Part shown: positions 12,932 to 58,800 of the stretch, piece by piece | Numbering within the stretch: position 1 is the first letter of the stretch | How the letters are laid out: each line of letters starts with the position of its first letter | NCBI GenBank assembly: GCA_903813345.2 | Contig: CAIIXF020000012.1 | Span: 28,036,684-28,100,683 of the forward strand | Direction: 5' to 3' | From: Owenia fusiformis | Lineage: Eukaryota; Annelida; Polychaeta; Sabellida; Oweniidae | Length of the DNA: 64,000 bases | The notes under the pieces: model-generated | Told to the model about the DNA's origin: nothing | Databases searched by the model: none | What the model saw: the letters and a program-made list of their open reading frames with translations, nothing else | Position numbers and translations under genes: made by a program

Positions 12932-13118
12932 CTAAATGTAAAGTTACTATAGTATATTATAATTGTTGAAATTGTCCCTACATTTCGTGCTTGTTTTCCA
13001 AAAATTATTATTTGTCTTAACCTATTCCACGTGGTATACGCATGCCGAAGACACTAATTTAATAATGAAATGTAGTGGCATGCATGCTTTACCCAGTTGC
13101 CGCCACCTAGAAAAACTT

Positions 13119-13630
13119 CAAATTACTACCTACATATCCGAAGTGTTCAATAAAGGAAATGAGATGTGTCCAAGTCGACCGATTGTGCCTTCAAATTACT
13201 ACCTACATATCCGATGTGTTCAATAAAGGAAATGAGATGTGTCAAAGTCGACCGATTGTGCCTTCAAATTACTACCTACATATCCGATGTGTTCAATAAA
13301 GGAAATGAGATGTGTCAAAGTCGACCGATTGTGCCTTCAAATTACTTTCTACATATATCCGAAGTGATCAATATAGGAAATGAGATGTGTCCAAGTCGAC
13401 CGATTGTGCCTTCAAATTACTACCTACATATCCGATGTGTTCAATAAAGGAAATGAGATGTGTCAAAGTCGACCGATTGTGCCTTCAAATTACTACCTAC
13501 ATATCCGATGTGTTCAATAAAGGAAATGAGATGTGTCCAAGTCGACCGATTGTGCCTTCAAATTACTACCTACATTTCCGAAGTGATCAATAAAGGAAAC
13601 GAGATGTGTCCAAGTCGACCGATTATGCAG
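13119..13630. repeat. 73-bp minisatellite, about 7 copies
   Basis: Exact 73-bp spacing (for example 13119 to 13192) of a unit with CAAATTACTACCTACATATC, CAATAAAGGAAATGAGATG and GTCGACCGATTGTG. 73 is not a multiple of 3, so open frames over it rotate through the three frames and are artefacts. It lies in gene B intron 2. Confidence 0.85.
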
Positions 13631-18119: not shown

Positions 18120-18800
18120 ACTGGTTACTATGGTAAACAGATTTATACCCCATGGGTATGATTTTAAGGGGGGTACAATGAAATCCATCTATAATTCCTA
18201 GAATATACAGCCATTCATCTTGATATTTACAGGTAATCATCTACTTATAATGCACTACCACTATGACAAGTTTCATTAATATTTAACACTTGGTAGCTAT
18301 GGTAACAGAAATAATTTATTAAAAAATACACATTAAGGAGATACTATGTATAATTCCTGGAATTAATCATCTTGATATTTATGGGTAATCATCTGCTTAT
18401 CATGTCTTACCAGTATGACAAGTGCCATCAATGTTGGTCAATTGGTTGCTATGGTAACAGAAATCATTTCTTAAAAATTGCACATCAAGGGGGTACTATG
18501 TATAATTCCCAGAATATTTAATCAATCATCTTGATATTTACAGGTAATCATCTGCTTATCATGTCCTACCAGTATGACAAGTGCCATCAATGTTGGTCAA
18601 TTGGTTGCTCTGGTAACAGAAATAATTTGTTAAAAAGTGCACATAAAGGGGGTACTATGAAAGCCATGTATAATTCCTAGAATATTCAATCAATCATCTT
18701 GATATTTACGGGTAATCATCCCGTTACATGTCCTACCAGTATAACAAGTGCCTCAATGTTGGTAATTTGGTTGCTATGGTAACAGAAATCATTTGTTAAA
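18120..18800. repeat. ~170-bp tandem repeats in E1 left arm
   Basis: About four units of TCCTAGAATATNNAATCATCTTGATATTTACAGG-type sequence followed by CTTATCATGTCCTACCA, GACAAGTTTCAT and GGTTGCTATGGTAACAGAAA. The inverse is found at 20100-20482 and 31141-31480. Confidence 0.7.
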
Positions 18801-18970
18801 AACAAAGAGTACACATTTTCGTAAAAATCTAAGACTCATGTAACCTTTGACATTAAGCACATAATATGTTCATCATTTCGGGAGAAATAAGCATGGAAAC
18901 ATTTCATAAAACTTATCACATCTCATTAATCACAACAGTGGACGCTTTATTGCCATCACTGGTCATCAAC

Positions 18971-37845: not shown

Positions 37846-40800
37846 CTAAAATAAAATATGAATGAGTAATTGATATGATGCAGATTAAGGTACATGGTTT
37901 TTTGATTGTGGGCAAGATTTTTATCGTAAGAATCAGCTAGATTCATCTTCTTATTTTTTAGAATATCCTACAATATAATTTAGGGCTTTAATATTTCCAT
38001 ACAAAGATGAGATCCTGGCAACTCTGGAATTTATACGAAAATAATAATAATCCATAAAGAACTTACGTTCAATTGTCATAAAATCTGCAAAGTTCCACAC
38101 CATTTCTCCAACAAAGAATTGTGTGCGCAGTTTGTCAAACACAGCATGATATTCTCGCATAAAATCAACCTGGTATTCCTCAGTGAAGATGAAGGATGGC
38201 ACCTGAAATATTAAAATGAATGATGGTTTATATTCTTCACGTAATAAGCACTGTGAATGTCAGCTTATGACTAGACCTAAAGAAGTCATACGACTTGTAT
38301 ATTGTACGGCCGTATTTTCCCGTGGTATTATATTTTTACCTCTTTGCGGTGAGTTTTGGAAAATTTGCAAAGTATAATTGAAAAATATAGATCTTTCAAC
38401 AAATGAATTCCGAATTAAATATTGACTTTGTTCACAGTATATAGAAGGTGGAATATGGTCATGTTCGACTATTGAATTAATAGGTTTTGTCATTTTGATT
38501 CGACCACAGGATAATCAAATACTGGTATAAAGTATTGTTATTTCAACTCAACCAAACGCCTTATTTGGATTGAGCCTTGAACAAGCATCTCATTTACAAT
38601 AGCTCATTTACAATAACTTTTGCTCATTGGTTGAATCAACAAGCATTTGCATTTAAGAAAAGTGGACACCATGAAATTTTCTAATGAATCATAATTCTCC
38701 CTTTCGCGATTCGCTCTTTGAATCAGAACGTTCGCAAATATGTACTGAAAAGCACTCAAAAAGGACAAAATTTGATTGGTTTATATTTTCTCACTATGCA
38801 TTTCGCGTAGCTATTTGCGTGACCCGAAAGTTCTAAATCAAACTAATTACGTAATTTTGTTTTTACACCCGCACGCTAAATAAAACAATGACAACATCGG
38901 AAATTTTCTTCTTTGTCATTGCTTTAATAGTCTGTATACCGAGTTTAATCAATAAAAGATTGTACAATGAACAACAAAATTCGGAAACGAGTACTATAGA
39001 TTTGCTTTCGGACCAGTGAACAGAGTGACCTAGATAATAGCGACGCTTCTTCTTTGGTCTACTGCTCAGTTATTTGTTGGTTTTCAACGTAACTCTATGA
39101 TGTAATTTGATGATGAATACTTTTATTCCGTTGTTGCATCGATGATGCAGTTTGTAGTGCGGTAAGATTGGCATGAAAGTATTGAAAGTCGAATGGAATT
39201 GATTTTTCGAATATGGCGACTAGTCAACTGATCATCAGACCTTCTCTTCAGGAATATTTTCTCACTTTTCAATCATCGTTTTCACCACGCTATGAATCAA
39301 TACAATGAAAAGAATAGCTGTTATATTAAGATTAATAAAAGATCAATCGTTTCTAATAATTTTTTCTGTACCCTCGTACGAGAATATGAACGAATATATC
39401 GTTTGAAAAATAGGTGTTAAAATCCCCATGTTAAACCTATGAAGGAAAACAAGGAAGTATAAATTTGTTCCTCCGCGAACTGCATCATGGGAAATATTTT
39501 GACCTTATAAGGAAAGATTTTCGCGTCTCCTCTTTTGAAGAGGGAACAGCGATTTCGAGAATTAATGAATTTAATGGTGGATCATTTATCTATTTTATTT
39601 TAAGAATTGTATGGTCCATCATTTTGAGGATCAAATCAGGCATGTTGTTAACAAGGTATTAACATACAAAATATCAACACATTTTATTTGTTACCGAAAC
39701 CAACCGCTGAACACCATCCACAAAAAAGTTAGTTGACTATAACTTCTGATGGTAACATTAGAATATGAAAAATCAGGCAGTTTAAGAAACCAAATATGGA
39801 GCTACTCATCTGACGCAAAGATAACACATTATGGGTCCTCTATTCAAAATGTGAGCCTCTCATTTACTCACCCTATGCAGACCAGCTATGGTATCAGCCC
39901 CATATTCAGTAATTATGACAGGTTTGTTGAACCTCTTGTTCCAATTTGTCAGGTCTTCAGTGAGTTGTCTTTGTATAACACCAGTCACCCCTGTATCACT
40001 ATACCAACCATAGTAATGGTTAATACATAGGACATCTACGTATTGAGCCTACAAGTAGATAATAATATACATTAAACTAATTTGTCAAGTCTTCAGTGAG
40101 TTGTCTTTGTATAACACCCGTCACCCCTGTATCACTATACCAACCATAGTAATGGTTAATACATAGGATATCTACGTATTGAGCCTAGAAGTAGATAATA
40201 ATATACATTAAACCAATTTGTCAAGTCTTCAGTGAGTTGTCTTTGTATAACACCAGTCACCCCTGTATCACTATACCAACCATAGTAATGGTTAATACAT
40301 AGGACATCTACGTATTGAGCCTAGAAGTAGATAATAATATACATTAAACCAATTTGTCAGGTCTTCAGTGAGTTGTCTTTGTATAACACCAGTCACCCCT
40401 GTATCACTATACCAACCATAGTAATGGTTAATACATAGGACATCTACGTATTGAGCCTACAAGTAGATAATAATATACATTAAACCAATTTGTCAAGTCT
40501 TCAGTGAGTTGTCTTTGTATAACACCAGTCACCCCTGTATCACTATACCAACCATAGTAATGGTTAATACATAGGATATCTACGTATTGAGCCTAGAAGT
40601 AGATAATAATATACATTAAACCAATTTGTCAAGTCTTCAGTGAGTTGTCTTTGTATAACACCAGTCACCCCTGTATCACTATACCAACCATAGTAATGGT
40701 TATTACATAGGACATCTACGTATTGAGCCTAGAAGTAGATAATAATATACATTAAACCAATTTGTCAAGTCTTCAGTGAGTTGTCTTTGTATAACACCAG

Positions 40801-43800
40801 TCACCCCTGTATCACTATACCAACCATAGTAATGGTTAATACATAGGACATCTACGTATTGAGCCTAGAAGTAGATAATAATATACATTAAACCAATTTG
40901 TCAGGTCTTCAGTGAGTTGTCTTTGTATAACACCAGTCACCCCTGTATCACTATACCAACCATAGTAATGGTTAATACATAGGACATCTACGTATTGAGC
41001 CTAGAAGTAGATAATAATATACATTAAACCAATTTGTCAGGTCTTCAGTGAGTTGTCTTTGTATAACACCAGTCACCCCTGTATCACTATACCAACCATA
41101 GTAATGGTTAATACATAGGACATCTACGTATTGAGCCTAGAAGTAGATAATAATATACATTAAACCAATTTGTCAGGTCTTCAGTGAGTTGTCTTTGTAT
41201 AACACCAGTCACCCCTGCATCACTATACCAGCCATAGTAATGGTTAATACATAGGACATCTACGTATTGAGCCTAGAAGTAGATAATAATATACATTAAA
41301 CCAATTTGTCAAGTCTTCAGTGAGTTGCCTCTGTATAACACCAGTCACCCCTGTATCACTATACCAACCATAGTAATGGTTAATACATAGGACATCTACG
41401 TATTGAGCCTACAAGTAGATAATAATATACATTAAACCAATTTGTCAAGTCTTCAGTGAGTTGCCTCTGTATAACACCAGTCACCCCTGTATCACTATAC
41501 CAACCATAGCAATGGTTAATACATAGGACATCTACGTATTGAGCCTACAAGTAGATAATAATATACACTAAACCAATTTGTCAAGTCTTCAGTGAGTTGT
41601 CTTTGTATAACACCAGTCACCCCTGTATCACTATACCAACCATAGTGATGGTTGATACATAGGACATCTACGTATTGAGCCTAGAAGTAGATAATAATAT
41701 ACATTAAACCAATTTGTCAGGTCTTCAGTGAGTTGTCTTTGTATAACACCAGTCACCCCTGTATCACTATACCAACCATAGTAATGGTTAATACATAGGA
41801 CATCTACGTATTGAGCCTACAAGTAGATAATAATATACATTAAACCAATTTGTGAAGTCTTCAGTGAGTTGTCTTTGTATAACACCAGTCACCCCTGCAT
41901 CACTATACCAGCCATAGTAATGGTTAATACATAGGACATCTACGTATTGAGCCTAGAAGTAGATAATAATATACATTAAACCAATTTGTCAAGTCTTCAG
42001 TGAGTTGTCTTTGTATAACACCAGTCACCCCTGTATCACTATACCAACCATAGTAATGGTTAATACATAGGACATCTACGTATTGAGCCTACAAGTAGAT
42101 GATAATATACATTAAACCAATTTGTCAAGCCTTCAGTGAGTTGTCTTTGTGTAACACGAGTCACCCCTGCATCACTATACCAGCCATAGTAATGGTTAAT
42201 ACATAGGACATCTACGTATTGAGCCTAGAAGTAGATAATAATATACATTAAACCAATTTGTCAAGTCTTCAGTGAGTTGCCTCTGTATAACACCAGTCAC
42301 CCCTGTATCACTATACCAACCATAGTAATGGTTAATACATAGGACATCTACGTATTGAACCTAGAAGTAGATAATAATATACATTAAACCAATTTGTCAG
42401 GTCTTCAGTGAGTTGCCTCTGTATAACACCAGTCACCCCTGTATCACTATACCAACCATAGTAATGGTTAATACATAGGACATCTACGTATTGAGCCTAC
42501 AAGTAGATAATAATATACATTAAACCAATTTGTCAAGTCTTCAGTGAGTTGTCTTTGTATAACACCAGTCACCCCTGTATCACTATACCAACCATAGTAA
42601 TGGTTAATACATAGGACATCTACGTATTGAGCCTACAAGTAGATAATAATATACACTTAACCAATTTGTCAAGTCTTCAGTGAGTTGTCTTTGTATAACA
42701 CCAGTCACCCCTGTATCACTCTACCAACCATAGTAATGGTTAATACATAGGACATCTACGTATTGAGCCTACAAGTAGATAACAATATACATTAAACCAA
42801 TTTGTCAAGTCTTCAGTGAGTTGTCTTTGTATAACACCAGTCACCCCTGTATCACTATACCAACCATAGTAATGGTTAATACATAGGACATCTACGTATT
42901 GAGCCTAGAAGTAGATAATAATATACACTAAACCAATTTGTCAAGTCTTCAGTGAGTTGTCTTTGTATAACACCAGTCACCCCTGTATCACTATACCAAC
43001 CATAGTAATGGTTGATACATAGGACATCTACGTATTGAGCCTAGAAGTAGATACTAATATACATTAAACCAATTTGTCAAGTCTTCAGTGAGTTGTCTTT
43101 GTATAACACCAGTCACCCCTGTATCACTATACCAACCATAGTAATGGTTGATACATAGGACATCTACGTATTGAGCCTAGAAGTAGATAATAATATACAT
43201 TAAACCAATTTGTCAAGTCTTCAGTGAGTTGTCTTTGTATAACACCAGTCACCCCTGTATCACTATACCAACCATAGTAATGGTTAATACATAGGACATC
43301 TACGTATTGAGCCTACAAGTAGATAATAATATACATTAAACCAATTTGTCAGGTCTTCAGTGAGTTGTCTTTGTATAACACCAGTCACCCCTGTATCACT
43401 ATACCAACCATAGTAATGGTTAATACATAGGACATCTACGTATTGAGCCTACAAGTAGATAATAATATACATTAAACCAATTTGTCAAGTCTTCAGTGAG
43501 TTGTCTTTGTATAACACCAGTCACCCCTGTATCACTATACCAACCATAGTAATGGTTAATACATAGGACATCTACGTATTGAGCCTACAAGTAGATAATA
43601 ATATACCCTCAATCATATCTGCTGGAAAACGTTATGTAAGAAACTCATTTTGTAAGGAACACCTATTTTTAAAAGAACAGTTTTTAAAATAAGTTCTATC
43701 ATGTCTATTGACTGACTTGTTCATGAACTCGCCATGCCCATCATAAAGGAATAATTTGGGTCAGTATGGAGGGGTGCCCCATAATCATAGGTTTTACTGC

Positions 43801-46800
43801 ACTGTTACAAAAGAATAAGTTATCATATGAGATTCCCATCTCTGCATTTTCATGGCAAAATCATTTCTCCATTATTTTAGGACGTGCAAAGCGGACAAAA
43901 GGATTACAGTTCAATACATTCCTGATTAGAAAAGGTTAATTTGATTACACATGTACCTGTAGCAAACATCCAGTCATATTATTGGTTGCTTGATGACGAT
44001 TATAATTCCATTTTATCTCAATAATTGTGACATTTCGGGCGTTTTTATTGTTGGAAAATATCAACTTCGATTCTGGGAGCCAATCCTACTATATATCATA
44101 CATGCACAATTATGACAGCATTTCTCACCTAATTTCTTGCCTAAAAGCCATTATTTACAGCATCTTATCACATACTTACTGCTCTATCGGTGCTCCAACT
44201 TGACCCTCCAACCACAAATGTCACAGGTCTAGTGGGGTCTAACTGTCTTATATGTCCAATTACAGACCTAAATAAATAAAACAGGGGAGTCCAGTGATAA
44301 ACCAGGGGGTGATACTTACTGCTCTATCTGTATTCCAACCTCCACCCCCAGATACAAATGTCACGGGTCTAGTGGGGTCTAACTGTCTTATATGCCCAAT
44401 TACAGACCTGGATTAATAAAAACTGGTATCAATACTGGCAGAGGGAGTTTACAGACAGATTGGGCTCATCAATGGAAACATGTATCCAGGGGAATAAGAA
44501 AAGAAAAATACTTGCAGACCAGCTTTATCTTAGAAAGTGAGACCAATACCTCAGAGCTTTAAATAAAGATTTGGCAAAATAGACAGAATTCTGATACCAG
44601 TTTTCTCCTGAATTTTGGATTTCCTTTTTCGTATGTATAAGAAGACTGACAGAGATGCAAGGAGAGCAGTACACTAGATAAGGCTATAGGAAATGTATTT
44701 TGGTTTGTAACCGATATACAGTTATTCTATTCAAATGAATGACTCAATACTTTAATGCCTCAGATTTTACATGGCAGTTATATGCTTTGTTTTTTAAAAA
44801 ACATCATGAACAAAACATTGGGTGTATTCTGGTGGCTTTGCATAATTGTTTCTTAATTTATGTCACATTATTACTAGTCCCTTGGAGGCTTAATTACATG
44901 AGTGTTTTATTCAACTTACTTGAAATAATGGTCAGCCTCAGGAAGACTACTTGCAGGTTCATTGGCGACTGACCACATGACTACTGCAGGTCGATTCTTG
45001 TCTCTGGCATACATCTCTCCCATAACTTCCATGTGGTGTGCCACAGATATATTCCCCATGTTATCGGGACTGCAAGTAAAGTGTTAAAGTGTAATAGAAT
45101 AATGTAACAAACTGAGGAAACAAGTAGTCGAACAGGCATTAACTTGCAAAATCTCACCACCTGCTATTTGCTACAGATGCTGAACTCCAAACATCAACTG
45201 CTGAACATCATCCACAAAAAAGTGGAGACTAAAAATAACATTTATTATTATTTCCATGCCGTGATACGCGTTCTCTCATTGGTCAATTAGATACCATGTG
45301 ACTTAAAATATATAGAGGTATTCCTTGTCTCCCTGCTTTGAAAACATGTGAAGAGTGTATTCACTAAAAATGAAGTAATTTAATTGAATAAATAGTGGTA
45401 TTCACTAAAAATGACGTCACATCACTGAATTTCCGGGAATTTAGTAAAAAGTGTTTTCATCCGATATGACAGATGGTGAAGTTTTATCAGTCCTCCCAAG
45501 AAAGGTTCAATACTGTATTCAAAATGTCAACTAATGAAAGCACGAAGACTACGAATCTAATTTTTATATATTATGGTGTGACAGAGATTGTGAATTATAA
45601 CAGAATATTGGCAAACGTTTGGAAATACGTTAAAACTAAACGTCATATCATAACAATATTGTGAACTTGTAACTTTAATATTGTGTGCTGCTTTAATGGG
45701 GAAATAATAAAACAAATATTGAATTCTGTGATCGTTTAATATCTGTTTATATTTCTTAGCCCTTCGGGCCCTTCGGGCTGCGGTGAATACACCTTCAGAA
45801 ATATATACAGATTATCAACTCCACAAAATTCAATATTTGTATAGCAACAATGTGAATAATATTGTATTTAATAATAAAAAATAGTACCACAGGTACTGGG
45901 CTCACATGGTGTTGCTTAAAAGTGAATGATGGCTAAAATGGGAGAAAATAAAAAAACGAATACAATTTTTGCCGATTTTTTGTAACAAAATTATATCATA
46001 CATCTACTCTTTACAGTGACATGGCTTTTTACAATGCAGGACACCTGAAATTATTTGTAAAGCTAGGAAATGGGCCAAAAGTGAATTTCGCTATACAAAA
46101 ATGGCGACCATTTTGAAAATAGGCAAGCTTTTGAACCAGAAGTCATAGGGGAGTTTTCTGTATTGATGTTGAACAAAAATAACTTAAAATGGGAATCCTA
46201 ATCGACAGAGGTTTTAAGGCAAATTGTCCAAAAATGGATTAAACGGACAAATCAATGTTAACGAAAATGGCCGAAAATAAAATAATGGATTTAACTTATT
46301 GCTGATTTTTTCTAACAAAATTATTTCATACAACTATTCTTTACAGTGACATGGCTTTTTACAATGCAGGACACCTGAAATTATTTGTAAAGCTAGGAAA
46401 TGGGTCAAAAGTGAATTTCGCAATACAAAAATGGCGACAAATTTGGAAATAGGCGGGCTTTTGAACCAGGAGTCATATGGGAGTTTTCTGTATTGTTGTT
46501 GAACAAAAATAACTAAAATAATAAACGGGAGTCCTATTGACACAGGTTTTAAAGCAAATGGTCCAAAAGTGATTTTTGCGAGACAAAAATGGTGGCCATT
46601 TTGAAAATAGGCAAGCTTTTGAACCAGAAGTCATAGGGGTTTTCTATATTGATGTTTAACAAAAATAACTGGGAATCCTATTGACAGAGGTTTTAAAACA
46701 GGCCAATTGTTGACAGATGGACAGACGGATGGATGGACAACGGACAGACGAACGGACCAATGATGGACGGACAGACAAAGGGACGCCTGGTCGATCCCAT

Positions 46801-49800: not shown

Positions 49801-52800
49801 ACTCTCCGACTATTATTTTTATGATAGAGGCATTTCTAGGAAAAACTTATTGCATTCATAACATGATAATGTAACAAGTTTTGTGATTGCTTTAATCTGT
49901 CTTTATAAAAAAACAATTTGGGGTTGTGATTTGGAGTTATATGGGGTTTGTTTTTCTTGACTGGTATGCACTCACAAACATAAACATAAACTTAGAGTTT
50001 GCTTTTTCTTGCTAAGTTCCATTACAATTTTTGGTCCTTACCCTTTTGCACTAGTGCTTATATATTGATAAACATGCATTTTTCAAAACAGGTAAGGGTC
50101 AAGTGATCAGATATGTCCTTGAAGATAATGATGTGTCGTTCGAGGATATATTAGTTCCAATGTGGTCAGAGGAGATTAAGCAGCGTTGTCTTAGCGACCA
50201 GGGATTTTACTTCGAAGACGTTTTTAATCCTAGACTGGACTGGCTGAGCAAAGAATGGCAGGAGTTGAAACAAAAAACTGTAAGTTACGAATTACAGGGT
50301 GGTCAAAAAGTCAAAACCCTGCATTTTTCTCAAATTTTTGTCATTTTAAGAAATTACTCCCTAACTCCCTGATATCTGACACATTTGTACATCATTCAAT
50401 TTCCTACCGGCCTACCGTATTTCATGACCATCATGCTGATAGTTACAATGTTACAGCACTTTGAACAACATTCTTCAGATTTGGCCATCCTTGCGCTGAA
50501 GGCACAGTTGTCAATGATCCGAATGCATTCCTCAGCAGGTATGGCCTGAATGACACAAATGATTTCACTTTTGAGGTCTGCAATTGTCATGAGGTCATTG
50601 TTGTACACTCTATCTTTGCCTTATCCCCACAGGTAGAAGTCAGGTAGGCACATTTTGGATGACGTATGCAGGTTTGCCTGCAGATCAATAGTCGCCACTG
50701 GATGTTCTTGAAAGTGCTGTTACTTTGTATATATCAGTCTGCTGGTCATGAAATATGATAGGCTGGTAGGAATTCAATGATATTCAAATACGTAAAATAT
50801 TAGAGAGTTATTTCTTAAAATGACAAAGATATGAGGAATAGCAATAGGATTTCCATTTTTTGTCCACCCTGTATTTGCTTCCCTTGCTTGAAAAGTAGAT
50901 TTCATATCTTAACTTAGACAATTTTTAAAATTCGCCCACACAGAAACCCAGATTGGTTAACAGATATAGGGGTTCAGTATATGTTACAATGATAAGGGCA
51001 ATGCTTATGTGTTTCTAGTGCTGAGGACTTCTAGATTTACCAAACACATACTGGTACTTATAACTTAAACTTTTGAAAAAAACATAAATCCATTAATTTG
51101 AATTTTAAACCTACCCTTTCTTTGGAAAATCAATGATTGTGAGTCTCACAGTACACCATTTTTCTTCAAACTTGTTCTATTAAACCCTTCACAGAAATAC
51201 CTTTCACTCGAGACATTGCTTTTGTGTACTGAGAGTTGCTCGTTTTATCAGCGTTTTGGTCCCCAGATGTGAGAAGATGCAAATCTTCAGAGATTTCAAC
51301 CAAAAACCTCGATATATTGCCAGTTCTATTATCATTCTCCCCTATATTTTGCACAAGAACTTCCATTTCCACCCTCCATCTCTGCATCAACATATTTATT
51401 ACATTAAACGCAGCAATTTCCAAAAGTCCTACGCATCTGTTCCAAATTGATCAAAACGCCCTGTTCTCTTCTTGGATCTATACACCTTGAAACTACACGT
51501 TTGTAGTCAAAGATTCTGCGGGGCGTTTTGGAAGACAACGGCGCGTTTTGGTCAATTTTGACTTTTCAGCATTTCATTACATGCGTATCATGTAATAAAC
51601 ATGTTGATGCAGTGATGGAGGGTTGTAATGGGAGTCCTTGCGCAGAATATGAGGGAGAGTGATAGAAGAACTGGCGAGATATCAAGGATTGTGGTTGAAA
51701 TCTCTGAGGATTTGCAACTTCTCACATCTGGGGACCAAAACGCCGCTAAAACGAGGGACTTTGGATACAAAAGCACTGAAAGGTATTTCTGTGAAGGTTT
51801 TAATGGAACAAGTTTGAAGAAAAACGGTGTAGTGTGAGACTCACAATCATTGATTTTCCAAAGACAGGGTATATTTGAAATTCAAATTAACGGTTTTGCT
51901 GGGCGTTTTGGTTTCGATACGCCCCGGTGAGTTAGTACCGCATGAAATCGTCCAGTGAAAACAATGTAAATATGAATGAGGGTGATCTCAGGAACTTAAG
52001 AGACGAGATATAATTTATCACAAAGGTTGAACATTTCATTAAAATAATGTTTTTTTGCGCAATATTATAAACAGTCACTTTAAATGCATTCCTTCAACTC
52101 CTCCTTGTATCAATTCTCCAGATTGTTTCAAGTGCCTTTTTATTTTCAAAATTGTTGTTTTTCTCATTGCAGACATTTGGCCAAGTACCCTATCTTACTG
52201 GCCCAGATGGACTGGAGCTATCTGAATGTTATGCCATATTGCGATATTTTGGACGCAAACTTAATCTCTATGGCAACAATGATATTGAGGCTGCCAAGAT
52301 TGATATGTTACTAGAGCGTGAACACCCAACATTGGTGGGGGTACTTCTTTCATTTTTTGTAAGTTGCTTATCACACTAGAAAAGAAATCTGCTCTGAGTA
52401 AGCAAATTCCACAAATCAAAACATATTTTATCAAGTCCCTCATCATTTTCATCATTGCATGGGCGCAACCAGGAAGGAATAGACGAGACAACTACAACAA
52501 TCTCTTAAGTTCAATATTAAAAATGAAATATGAAAATCTACCCTTTGCATTCGTTCGACTTTGGTTCTCAAAAGAGAGCTTCATCTTCACTCTTTCAGTT
52601 TTCAATAAATCTCTGAACTCAACAAGCTAATCAGAGTTCGTCACCTGAATAAGGACGCTTTCTACATATGATTTATCTTCTGGAAGGATTGACAGACTGA
52701 CTGACAGACCGAAGGCTTCACTGCTGTATAAGTGGTATTTAATCCGAGTGGTTAATTTGCCGAATGGTCAAATTTTATCATTTTCCTAATTTTAATTTTC

Positions 52801-55800
52801 CTAATGATAAGCTTTAGTATTTCCAACATTTAATTTTCCGAACCTGGCAAAAATTAGGCAAAAGGCAAATTAAATGATAAGGCAAAATTACCACTTATAC
52901 ATAATATCTCTAGTACCAAACTTCGTTGGTTGGAATAAATATTAATCAACCATTACCAGAACTATACCCAGCTGTGTATTTTACAGAAAAAACAAGATGA
53001 TGCTGCAAGGATAGAGAGTACAAAGATTTGTGATACCCTGGCAATATTTCAGGTATGATTGCTCCTATTTAATAACCAAAAACTATCACCTCATCATTTA
53101 TTTCCAAAGATTCCTCATTATGAATTAATCATGCCAGGGATTGTAGTTCTTCTTAGCAAAGAAGATGAAGTTTTGAATGGCATATTTGGCATATTTTGAG
53201 AGAATATTTTGGGAATAACAATCTTAGACTAGCACTAGTGTGAAAGAGGGATTTTCTTACAAGACTCTGTTCCATATGAGTGAGAGTGAATATTTGATAT
53301 CCACTAAAATAAAAAAGAGTTATACAAGATACAAGAGTTATTACATTGTAAAAAAATATTGGAAACTTTTTTAGAAACTTCTGGAGAAGAATAAGAAAGG
53401 AGAAGGCTACTTTGTGGGAGATAGAGTCTCTATTGCAGACTATGCCATGTTAGATCTCCTAGATGCCTGCATAAGTCTCTCAAGCACAATGCTAGATGCC
53501 TATCCAACACTGAAGGCATTCTATGATCGCATGGCTTCAAGGGAAAAGATTGCAGCGTGCAAAGCCTCAGAAAAGTACAAATCTTTCTATGTTGCTGGCA
53601 ATCTTGGACGAAAGTAAATTGGTATAGAAACAGTACCGAAGTTGCAAACATGAACAGTTCAAATTGTTACCAGAAATGCTACCATTGTAATTGAAATGTG
53701 AACAAATCTTAAAAGATTTGAAAATATTCTAAATAGTATGGCTCAAAATGTGAAGTGATTTCAGACAAATTGACAACCATATTTTGAACATCTTGGGATA
53801 ATTATAATGGAATTAAATGATAGTTTCTTAGCTAAAACTAAAACTCACAGTGTGAGCTTAAAATAGTGATTGTAACAATATATCGCCACTTCTTGGTGGT
53901 ATTACATAATAACAGGGTAATATTATTTATGTACAAAAATTTGAATTATACGCAAAATAAATGAGATGCTTTTTAAACAATTTTTGAGATTAATTTGTAC
54001 AACTAGACAATGGGTGTTTATCAGATAAGGATTGAGGGAAAACTATCTGCACCTGCACAGCATTCAATATAAGGCTATTCAAAGTTAATAACTGAACTAT
54101 ATGTTTAATGACCTGACAGAGGGCCAAAGCTTTGGAGAAAGGGTGGTGAAAAAAACAAATTAAAAAACAACTTTTTGTTTATTTTCTGAAAATTCATATC
54201 TTCATGTTTCAATAATGAAAATTCAAACAATCAAACAATGAGGCCAAGGTTAGGTTCAAGATAAAGGTCAAAGACAGCAGCGTTGGTGAGGGATCAAACA
54301 AAAGAACGTTACTGATAAAGGATGTAATTAAATTCGAAAGCTCTGACAGTCTAGTTATTGTTATTGCTGGTTTAATGTTCTAAACCTCTCAAGTTACACT
54401 AACATGAACTTTAGACAGATAACACACATATCTGTAAGTGTAACATGAGTAATAGTTTGTATATTAATGATTTAAGTTACTGGTAGGCCTGATTGCAGAC
54501 TCACAGACGGTTATCATGGCAGAATACAAAGTGTATTATTTCTATATTAGAGGTATGATAACTATTCATTTTTAGGAAAAACTATGTATTCATGGCATGA
54601 TAATTAATGTAACATGTTTTGTGATTGCTTTAATCTGTCTATATGAAAAAAAGCTTGATACAGTGCTGGTATATATTAATTGATGAGTCGTTAAATTGGC
54701 ATATTTTCTTGAATTTTAACATTTTATGTCCCAAACTCCCACAAACTGCACAAAAGTATACACCATAAATCATATTTACCAAAATGAGAGTCTCCAAGGC
54801 TTCACACCAGCGTATGCATAATGCATTTGTCAAGAGTTTGAGCTGAAATTTCACCAAAATGAAGTAGGCTAAGGGTAGTCTCTGCCAGGTTTGTTTATTG
54901 TGGTAAGCTTGTAAGTGCTCAGAAGCAAATAATTCATGTGCGCAAAATAATCAAATAATCTGATTGGTTTAAATTTGCTGCACATGCGCACAATGTGTGC
55001 CATGTTTTTTTCTAGTGATTTTGTTTCCTTTCATGGGATTTGCGTTTCAGTGTAACTTCTGCAAAAATGGCGGACCATGGACAGAATCCTCCTCCTAAGC
55101 AGGTGTCCAGAATCCGTACCTCCTTCATCCCCCCTGCTATAACCAATCTGGAATCGCCCGATTTAACCGTATCACGTGATCTAATTATGCGCAATGGCTT
55201 ATACATGATTTCTGTCGCAGTGTTGCGACACCCAATCAGATTGCGAGTTCTTAATCGGGGAAATGGTTACTGCTTATCACAGGGGGTAACAAGGCACAGA
55301 CGTGAACAATATCGTACCTAAAACACAGCAGTGTGACAGTGAAGAATTTGGGACGGAAAATCCAAAATGGCCACCTTAAAATTTACACAGAATGCCCAAA
55401 AACTACGAAGGTACGAAAAGTTTCGAACAGAATGCGTGACATATACATAATTCGCGTGAAAAGTCAGAACGAAATGCGTACATTTTTTTTCCGGCGTTCG
55501 AATTTTTGATGTGTAGACGATCTTTTTTAGAAATTTTTCTACAGAAATATTTTTGCTTGACAATTACCAGGTAAAATGCGTATTTGCGTGACATTTTTTG
55601 TCACGCAAAAATAACTGGCGTGACTTCAAATTCTTCAGCAAATGCGTGACAAATACGCAAATTGCGGGACAGTTGACAGGCCTGGAAACATCCCTGAAAA
55701 TTTCGGATGAATCCATCAAATGGTTTGGCTGGAAACCTGTAGACAAGTCTTGAAAGTGAAGATTTTAGAACGGAAAATCCAAAATGACCACCTTAAAATA

Positions 55801-58800
55801 AACCCAGAATGCCCAAAAACTAATTAGTTGTTAACTTTGATATGTAGAAACATCCCTGTAAATTTCAAATGAATCCGTCAAATGGTTTGGCTGGAAACCT
55901 GGAGACAAGTCTTGAAAGTGAAGATTTTAGGACGGAAAATCCAAAATGGCCACCTTAAAATTTACCCAGAATGCCAAAAAACTAATCAGTTGTTAACTTT
56001 GATATGTAGAAACATCCCTGTAAATTTCAAATGAATCCATCAAATGGTTTGGCTGGAAACCTGTAGACAAGTCTTGAAAGTGAGGTTTTAGGACAGAAAA
56101 TCCAAAATTGCCACCTTAAAATTTACCCAGAATGCCAAAAAACTAATCAGTTCTTAACTTTGATACGTAGAAATATCCCTGAAAATTTCAGATGAATCCG
56201 TCAAATGGTTTGGCTGTAAACCTGTAGACAAGTCTTGAAAGTGAAGATTTTAGGACGGAAAATCCAAAATGGCCACCTTAAAATTTACCCAGAATGCCCA
56301 AAAACTAATCAGTTCTTAACTTTGATACGTAGAAACATTCCTGAAAATTTCAGATGAATCTGTCAAATGGTTTGGCTGGAAACCTGTAGACAAGCTGAAA
56401 AGTGAGACGCCAAATCAATGTTAACTAAATAGCTGAAAATAAAAAAAACGGATATGATTTTTTTTCCGATTTTTTGTTACAAAATTATTTCATACAACTA
56501 TTCTTTACAGTGAAATGGCTTTTTACAGACGAACAGACGGACAAGTGAGTGATTGCAAAAGCTCACCATGTGAGCTAATAAAATGGGAATCCTATCGACA
56601 GAGGTTTTGAAACGTACCACTATTGTTGACGGACAGACGGACGGACGGATGCACGCACGCATGGACAGACGGACAATTGAGTGACTGCAAAAGCTCACCA
56701 TGTGAGCTAAAAATACCATCTCTAAGATTTGCCAAACTTGTCCTAAAACTAATCAACTCTATATACCCATACCAAGGAACATCCCTGATTGTATTCATCA
56801 ATCGAACTTACAATTTAATGCCAACACCTGGGCTTTCATCTATGACTACAATGCCTTGTTGATCTGCTTGGTCCAAGATCTCCTCTGCATAAGGATAATG
56901 GGAGGTTCTGAAGCAGTTAATCCCAAGCCATTTCATCATTACGAAGTCCCTGGCAATCAGAGGGAAATCCAGCCCCTTTCCACGAATCTGAATATAAAAA
57001 TACAGTTAACTTTTAAAGTGGAACACCTCTGTCTGTACGTGGAACAATTTTATAAGTGGAATTGCCATGACCAATTGGTTTATTCTTAAAATAAACCTCT
57101 GTAAGTTGAAAATCTCCCACATGGAACACTTCTTACAGGTAGCAAAGGTGTTCAACTTATACAGGTTTTACTGTAAAAGGAATGGAAAAATACATATTGC
57201 ACTGGAAGTCACCGATGCAAAACACATTTGAGGTTCCCTGAAGCAAACCTACTAAAAGTAATCAGATAGGCACTTAATAAAACATTCTATCAACAGTGTG
57301 TGTCAATTTTTTAAGTCAATTTTGATTGTTGTGTATCAAATCTCACAGAATATAAATAAACTGCTCTTATAGTACTTGAAGTATAAAATGCATAAAAAAC
57401 TAACGTCAGAATCCTCATGTTTAGCTGCGCCATGGCAATAAAATGCTTTGTTGTTTATAAGAAATGTTGAGTTTGTTGTCTTGACAGTGCGAACACCAAA
57501 TGGTTGTCTGTATACATCAGTCCCATCTGCTGTTGTTACGGTAATCTGCAAGAAAACATAAAATAAAAACGTATAAACATGATGAAACTTGACATGTAAA
57601 ATATATGATTAAAAAGCATGACAAATGTCACCATCCTTGTTGCAATTACATTAGAGGCGGACTCTGAAGCCACATTTCCCAAAAATGTGTCCAAAACAAC
57701 ATGTCACACCATTTCTAACATTAGTTTACATTTTCAAAAGCATTTTTGCAATCACCTTATTAGGCATGCCTTTAGTCCTGCATTAAGCCTCTGCCCCCAA
57801 CCACTCCTCTCCAATGGAGGTATGCTTTAGAGGGAGGGGGCCACAAGGGCTTGAAACAAGACTAACTCACCTTCAATGTGTACATATACGCAGGGTCTTC
57901 TGAATTCATTGTATAGGGCCACCAGAGATGGACATTTTGAATGTGGATAATGTCTGATGGTTTTACAGCTGGGCCGTATTCTTTACCAGCTTTATCTATT
58001 ACTACTACTCTGTATGTAGCTGATGGAGATTGTGTGCCGTTAACTTTAAGTGCGTAATTCACTAGGCCTGAAAGAAATATGAGGTGTGTCATACTTTCAT
58101 ATCCACTAGGCCTGAGAGAAATATGAGGTGTGTCATGGATGGACTTTTCAAATTAGTATTATTAATATAAATGTGTATTCTCAGATGTTCTTCTTTTTTT
58201 CACATCAATACCCGCAATGATTCTTATGCGCTTTATCTCGCCAGTTCTTAAAAAATGAGTATTCAAAATGCAAATGTCCCATTGATGATTTTTTTTTTAA
58301 TTATCAAAATCATAATGATCAATAATTAATTAATGAAATTGGTAATATTTTTCACAATATTTCTAGATAATTACACCTAATGGTAGATTACATAGTTCAA
58401 AATCAAAATGTTAAAATGAAAATGTTGGAATGACATTTCAATTTTCAACATTTTGTTAAAGTGCGGAACTACCTTAAAGCTGTTTGTACCTTCTGTTCCT
58501 GAGAAATTAGTTGTTATGGTAACATCACTGAGGTAGGATTTGGGAGTAGTATACAGGCGCACCGAGCGATGAATTCCTGCATAATTGAAGAAATCCATCT
58601 GAAGATTCTGAACAAAATAACCTGGTGGATACCTATAGAAAAAGTTTACACAATGTTATTTTCTTCTAAAGGTGCAACAATGAGGGGCCATTCAACAATC
58701 ATGTACAAGTGTCAACATATATAAGTTTGGTTATTTCTATTTTTATTATTTCCGAAGAAACCCTGGGAAAGAAATCCCCTGGATAAACATTATTTCAGCT

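Follow-up and report, generated by a model that had tools for sequence, protein, structure and literature searches.

Amphioxus genes contain tandem repeats that run across intron/exon boundaries and go by the name of 'mirages'; they are reported to leave splicing undisturbed, to vary in length and to undergo concerted evolution (PMC3087553). In the globin gene BflGb6, the mirage consists of 150-160 bp units, each containing the 3' end of an intron and the 5' part of the following exon, which are 81-100% alike and occur in 3 and 6 copies; one of the BflGb6 haplotypes appears, according to the authors, to be aberrantly assembled in the lancelet draft (PMC3087553). A further mirage is located in Adh3 (Canestro 2002, as cited in PMC3087553). 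In lancelet PGBD5, tandem repeats of 60 and 108 bp lie over the 5' and 3' splice sites and are said not to disturb splicing, and Adh and TnC are given as further lancelet cases of splice-site repeats for which normal splicing is reported or argued (PMC3902484). The cases described under the mirage name in these papers have cephalochordate hosts.

Several other arrangements share some of these properties. Variable-number minisatellites with 30-bp units and an average of 4 repeats were found at the exon-intron boundaries of human segmental-duplication genes, where new introns are possible via cryptic sites (PMC2812944). In human OGT, a decoy exon has splice sites that bind U2AF and favor detention of the intron (PMC12017769), and the dual-specific AGGT sites of the polyubiquitin gene UBC, which can act as donor or acceptor, delimit the coding monomers (PMC10809524).

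In the whole stretch of DNA that was analyzed (the window; 64,000 nucleotides, 35% G+C), the boundary between intron 9 and exon 10 of a beta-glucuronidase gene is repeated in tandem. This array resembles the BflGb6 mirage in repeating the 3' end of an intron together with the 5' part of the next exon and in having units of similar size, while it differs in its copy number (27 versus 3 and 6) and in its 136-bp unit free of indels. The PGBD5 repeats likewise lie over splice sites, but comprise just a few imperfect copies (3 x 108 bp), and the human minisatellites share the position at an exon-intron boundary but have units of 30 instead of 136 bp. The OGT decoy is comparable in that unused intronic splice sites are possibly recognized without being spliced, although it is a single decoy with a tested function and not a repeat array. 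In UBC, splice sites are also repeated with the tandem unit, but these are AGGT sites, whereas the acceptor in our array reads AG/GC (the slash marks the splice junction). Normal splicing and length variation are reported for the amphioxus mirages; the glucuronidase array was analyzed in one genomic sequence. Judged by these likenesses, the array is most likely of the same kind as the lancelet mirages, and it is larger than those whose copy numbers were compared (3 and 6 copies in BflGb6 and 3 in PGBD5). Among the literature matches listed, judged by their titles and drawn from journals free of subscription, there was no glucuronidase case and no mirage outside the lancelets.

The host gene and its neighborhood

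A bacterial relative served as tblastn query to locate the exons of the host gene, which were then connected at GT-AG sites. All introns of the resulting model have GT-AG ends, and the use of the last copy of the array yields a single open frame of 645 aa. Over its C-terminal 212 aa, the predicted protein matches the human beta-glucuronidase 1bhg with an E value of 1.5e-76. In Pfam searches of the raw genomic frames, the GH2 C domain was detected at 2.1e-22, and the GH2 N domain (0.00038) and the middle domain (0.19) both remained below the curated cut-offs. Two catalytic glutamate motifs are found in the model, ANEP with Glu447, presumably the acid/base, and EYGA (within ITEYGAD) with Glu537, presumably the nucleophile. 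The GH2 domains and both glutamates expected of a GH2 beta-glucuronidase are hence present. The match to 1bhg and the open 12-exon model confirm the gene identity and the placement of exon 10 that had been proposed in an earlier sequence-only reading of this DNA. Beyond the last unit, exon 10 continues for 69 unique nucleotides; an intact real exon is thus found at one end of the array, and the coding frame is kept with copy 27.

Table 1. Positions of the beta-glucuronidase gene, its array and neighboring exons in the window
Feature	Position	Strand	Basis or remark
Complete GH2 beta-glucuronidase gene (GUSB-like), 12 coding exons, 645 aa	37691..62422	-	Exon model, one open frame
Working exon 10, 177 nt, with Glu537 and donor AGG/GTGAGT	39872..40048	-	Exon model, scan
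Intron 9, 4131 nt, if read between exon 9b and the last acceptor	40049..44179	-	595 nt ahead of the first decoy acceptor
Array of 27 x 136 bp units (26 decoys and the working copy)	39941..43606	-	Tandem Repeats Finder and acceptor scan
26 decoy units	40077..43606	-	Part of intron 9 when splicing goes to the last acceptor
Exon 9a, 88 nt	44320..44407	-	85% identical to 9b over 110 nt including flanks
Exon 9b, 88 nt, alternative to 9a	44180..44267	-	Exon model

Exons 9a and 9b are separated by an intron of 52 nt. The frame stays open with one copy and runs into a stop with both or neither, and swapping the two exons alters four residues (479, 482, 483, and 485) just past the stretch conserved with 1bhg. 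By its arrangement, this pair has the form of mutually exclusive exons. The acceptor region of exon 5 is duplicated once (58067-58135, minus strand) at a distance of 44 bp upstream, the first exonic base of the second acceptor being 58111; if this upstream acceptor were used, translation would stop at codon 246. The 11.7-kb intron 7 contains a glutathione S-transferase gene on the plus strand, which extends, judged by eye, from about 50100 to 53620 and includes a match to the Pfam domain GST_C_3 (E 1.5e-16) near 53345-53557 on the same strand.

Anatomy and variation of the 136-bp array

Tandem Repeats Finder reported a period of 136, 27.0 copies, 97% matches and 0% indels for the array. The acceptor scan of the minus strand identified 27 acceptors whose 26 spacings are each exactly 136, the first exonic bases being 43584, 43448 and so on down to 40184 for the decoys and 40048 for the working copy. 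The 27 copies at exact 136-bp spacing and without net length change noted previously were thus recovered in full. Each unit consists of the last 28 nt of intron 9 and the first 108 nt of exon 10, so that all 27 units span the boundary; this makeup, too, had been described before and holds in general, but three of the first six bases of copy 1 deviate from the unit, and the repeat is certain there for the last 22 intron nucleotides only. Chance is excluded as the source of the array. The acceptor scan and the exon model also bear out that only the last copy reaches Glu537 and the GTGAGT donor.

Pairwise identity among the 27 units is 97.2% on average and at least 92.6%, and individual units carry 0 to 5 changes relative to the consensus. 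There are 22 distinct unit types, which have variants in common but combine them differently. Between the working unit 27 and units 2, 14, and 24, there is no difference in any of the 136 nt. The acceptor positions -3, -2, -1, and +1 are invariant in 27/27 units, while position -4 is C in 15 units and G in 12, including the working copy, and exon position +2 deviates in one unit. The 26 near-equal decoy acceptors of the sequence-only reading are borne out.

To assess selection, changes were counted relative to a consensus built from the 27 units, and the working copy itself carries two of these changes (-4 and +97). Among 18 distinct exonic changes, 6 were synonymous, 10 missense and 2 stop, with 26, 68, and 6%, respectively, expected given the observed transition bias (p 0.43). 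A stop falls within the exonic part of two decoys. The intronic and exonic parts were equally variable (p 0.41), and none of the 26 distinct changes fell in the acceptor sites -3 to +1, an outcome compatible with chance (p 0.46). The predicted RNA fold of one two-unit stretch showed no excess structure over shuffled sequences (z -0.02). There is no sign of selection for a decoy function in these tests, which have low power with 26 distinct changes.

The high mean identity would fit homogenization of the units; at the two edges of the array, the working copy belongs to the four identical units, and copy 1 deviates. No block or higher-order structure was detected at lags 1 to 8, none of which was significant at 0.05 towards similarity (lag 1, P 0.096), and units at lags 3 and 4 were rather less alike. 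Units next to each other thus show no clear excess of similarity over units farther apart, and the lag test gives no clear trace of past exchange.

Tandem arrays abound in the window. Other sizeable ones are located at 13116-13628 (73 bp x 7), 18190-18802 (159 bp x 3.9), and 55685-56405 (162 bp x 4.5), which shows that tandem duplication is a general tendency of this region. A Pfam search of 14-24 kb in six frames for an exon under the 159-bp array at 18190 gave no match at E 0.01, and a 32-nt exact pattern of the 136-bp unit had 0 matches in viral_contigs. Within the gene, three of 11 acceptor loci are duplicated (exon 5 x2, exon 9 x2, and exon 10 x27). Since a near copy within 2.5 kb was also found at 12% of 380 random window sites, at least 3/11 is not a significant excess (p 0.15), and duplication targeted to splice sites was rejected as an explanation.

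Donors and the choice of acceptor

The strength of donors was predicted from pairing with the human U1 end and from a human weight matrix, which makes the scores rough. The exon 10 donor is predicted to pair with U1 at -9.6 kcal/mol and to be the second strongest of the 12 donors in the gene after that of exon 5 (-10.2); among the 3628 GTs on the strand, 0.3% pair as strongly as the exon 10 donor. Exons 5 and 10 (donors at 57870 and 39871, minus strand) hence have both partly duplicated acceptors and the two strongest donors of 12. A pairing of duplicated acceptors with strong donors was nevertheless discarded, because it is a post hoc observation on two cases and the wholly duplicated exon 9 has ordinary donors.

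The sequence-only reading reserves a 5' splice site within 200 bases for the last acceptor. This was not confirmed, since a plausible candidate donor is present at +60 in 27/27 units, reading GGG/GTGACT in 26 and GGG/GTGACG in one. The common form is predicted to pair with U1 at -6.3 kcal/mol, which beats 8/12 donors of the gene and ties with a ninth; the value for the exon 9 donors is -5.1. In the weight matrix, the +60 donor scores 2.89, above exon 9 (2.07) and below exon 10 (6.94). The same GT is also located within the working exon 10, where it must be passed over to make the enzyme. With a plausible donor in each decoy, the lack of a nearby donor is an unsafe reason for decoy skipping, and as the +60 donor is predicted to be no weaker than most donors of the gene, clean skipping is not guaranteed.

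Because units 2, 14, and 24 equal the working copy, the feature that marks the working acceptor must lie outside the unit, namely downstream, in the position of the acceptor or, with lower probability, in the slightly different unit ahead of it. Unit 26, which adjoins the working unit, differs from the units preceding decoys 2, 14, and 24 at 7, 6, and 2 sites, respectively, so that the preceding unit might conceivably influence acceptor choice. The three identical decoys together with the strong exon 10 donor fit exon definition, which is a plausible and, from the sequence, the best available account of acceptor choice. The exon definition proposed earlier thus stands on these two points, but not on the argument that decoys are devoid of a donor.

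We also determined by translation what the use of a decoy would cause. Splicing to an upstream acceptor followed by read-through to the real donor leads to a stop in 26/26 cases. In 20 of the 26 decoys, the stop follows after 54 codons, that is, after TNW and 18 further codons, while unit 7 is open for 15 codons, unit 26 for 35, unit 4 for 40, unit 21 for 53, and units 3 and 14 for 61. The run from TNW into the intron had been described correctly; the 19 additional codons given there include the stop, and six of the 26 decoys differ. If no new donor is used, all 26 stops lie at least 205 nt ahead of the exon 10/11 junction. A stop that far ahead of an exon junction is predicted to trigger nonsense-mediated decay (NMD) under the usual rule, so NMD is the predicted fate of these transcripts.

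Origin of the array and competing explanations

Taken together, our results suggest that the array is a mirage-type minisatellite that is probably neutral, and it is likely that the last acceptor is chosen by exon definition and that the decoys leave with intron 9. A 136-bp segment that by chance spanned the acceptor between intron 9 and exon 10 would have been duplicated in tandem, and the copies would then have multiplied and been kept alike by unequal exchange or gene conversion. Since the copies would have been added upstream of the intact exon, they may have lengthened intron 9 without harm to the coding sequence. The last acceptor would be picked because only at this site does the unit continue into the 69 unique nucleotides of the exon end, with a donor predicted to be strong behind them, as expected for exon definition, and the 26 other copies would be removed along with intron 9, presumably without consequence. 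Copy number may well vary.

The array could, on the other hand, act as a regulatory splicing decoy, in which the acceptors and +60 donors recruit U2AF and U1 unproductively and either delay the splicing of intron 9 or send transcripts into NMD, with the copy number setting GUSB output. In its favor, 26/26 decoy acceptors used without a new donor are followed by a premature stop 205 nt or more ahead of the exon 10/11 junction, the acceptor AG is kept in all units, and the OGT decoy exon offers a precedent for intron detention and U2AF binding (PMC12017769). We nevertheless regard this explanation as unlikely, since the decoys show no excess conservation in our low-power tests, two of them carry a stop in their exonic part, the lancelet mirages are reported not to disturb splicing (PMC3087553, PMC3902484), and repeat turnover alone accounts for the gain of the array. 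Quite improbable is a copy-number rheostat, in which the detention or diversion of intron 9 would scale with the number of the 26 acceptor and donor decoys, three of which are identical to the working site over the unit; glucuronidase output would then follow the length of the array, which would vary from one individual to the next. A regulatory role of the array is thus unsupported. Among the options raised earlier, tuning of GUSB output, feeding of NMD and a neutral VNTR, the last one fits best, and tuning and NMD find no support here.

The units might also serve as usable in-frame pseudo-exons of 60 nt, ending at the GGG/GTGACT donor at +60 and separated by 76-nt introns, which would give the protein a variable number of 20-aa repeats. 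While 25/26 decoys are open with a GT at +60, a length of 60 nt preserves the frame, and this donor surpasses those of exon 9 in predicted U1 pairing (-6.3 versus -5.1), the same GT must be ignored inside the working exon 10, added copies of a barrel segment should break the fold, and the codons show no constraint, which together make this possibility extremely unlikely. It is also hardly probable that the array is an assembly artefact or has a wrong copy number, the real array being shorter, longer or mis-joined. Arrays with three decoys identical to the working copy are hard to assemble, and the apparently aberrant draft assembly of one BflGb6 haplotype (PMC3087553) is a warning for the copy number of the 136-bp array as well. 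However, 22 unit types among 27 that combine common variants in differing ways at one fixed spacing, the unique flanks, and a working copy that runs into a sound gene argue against such an error.

With the mirage-type minisatellite as the preferred explanation, glucuronidase joins the genes that carry mirage-type repeats, and in a host other than a lancelet, the array would carry mirages into a further group. Should splicing go cleanly to the last acceptor, the gene would provide a strong natural test of exon definition, in which one pre-mRNA contains a working acceptor and 26 near copies; local acceptor strength would then be ruled out as the deciding feature, since no base of the 136 nt distinguishes three of the decoys from the working copy. 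Should usage be less than clean, copy number would act as a simple genetic control of the enzyme level.
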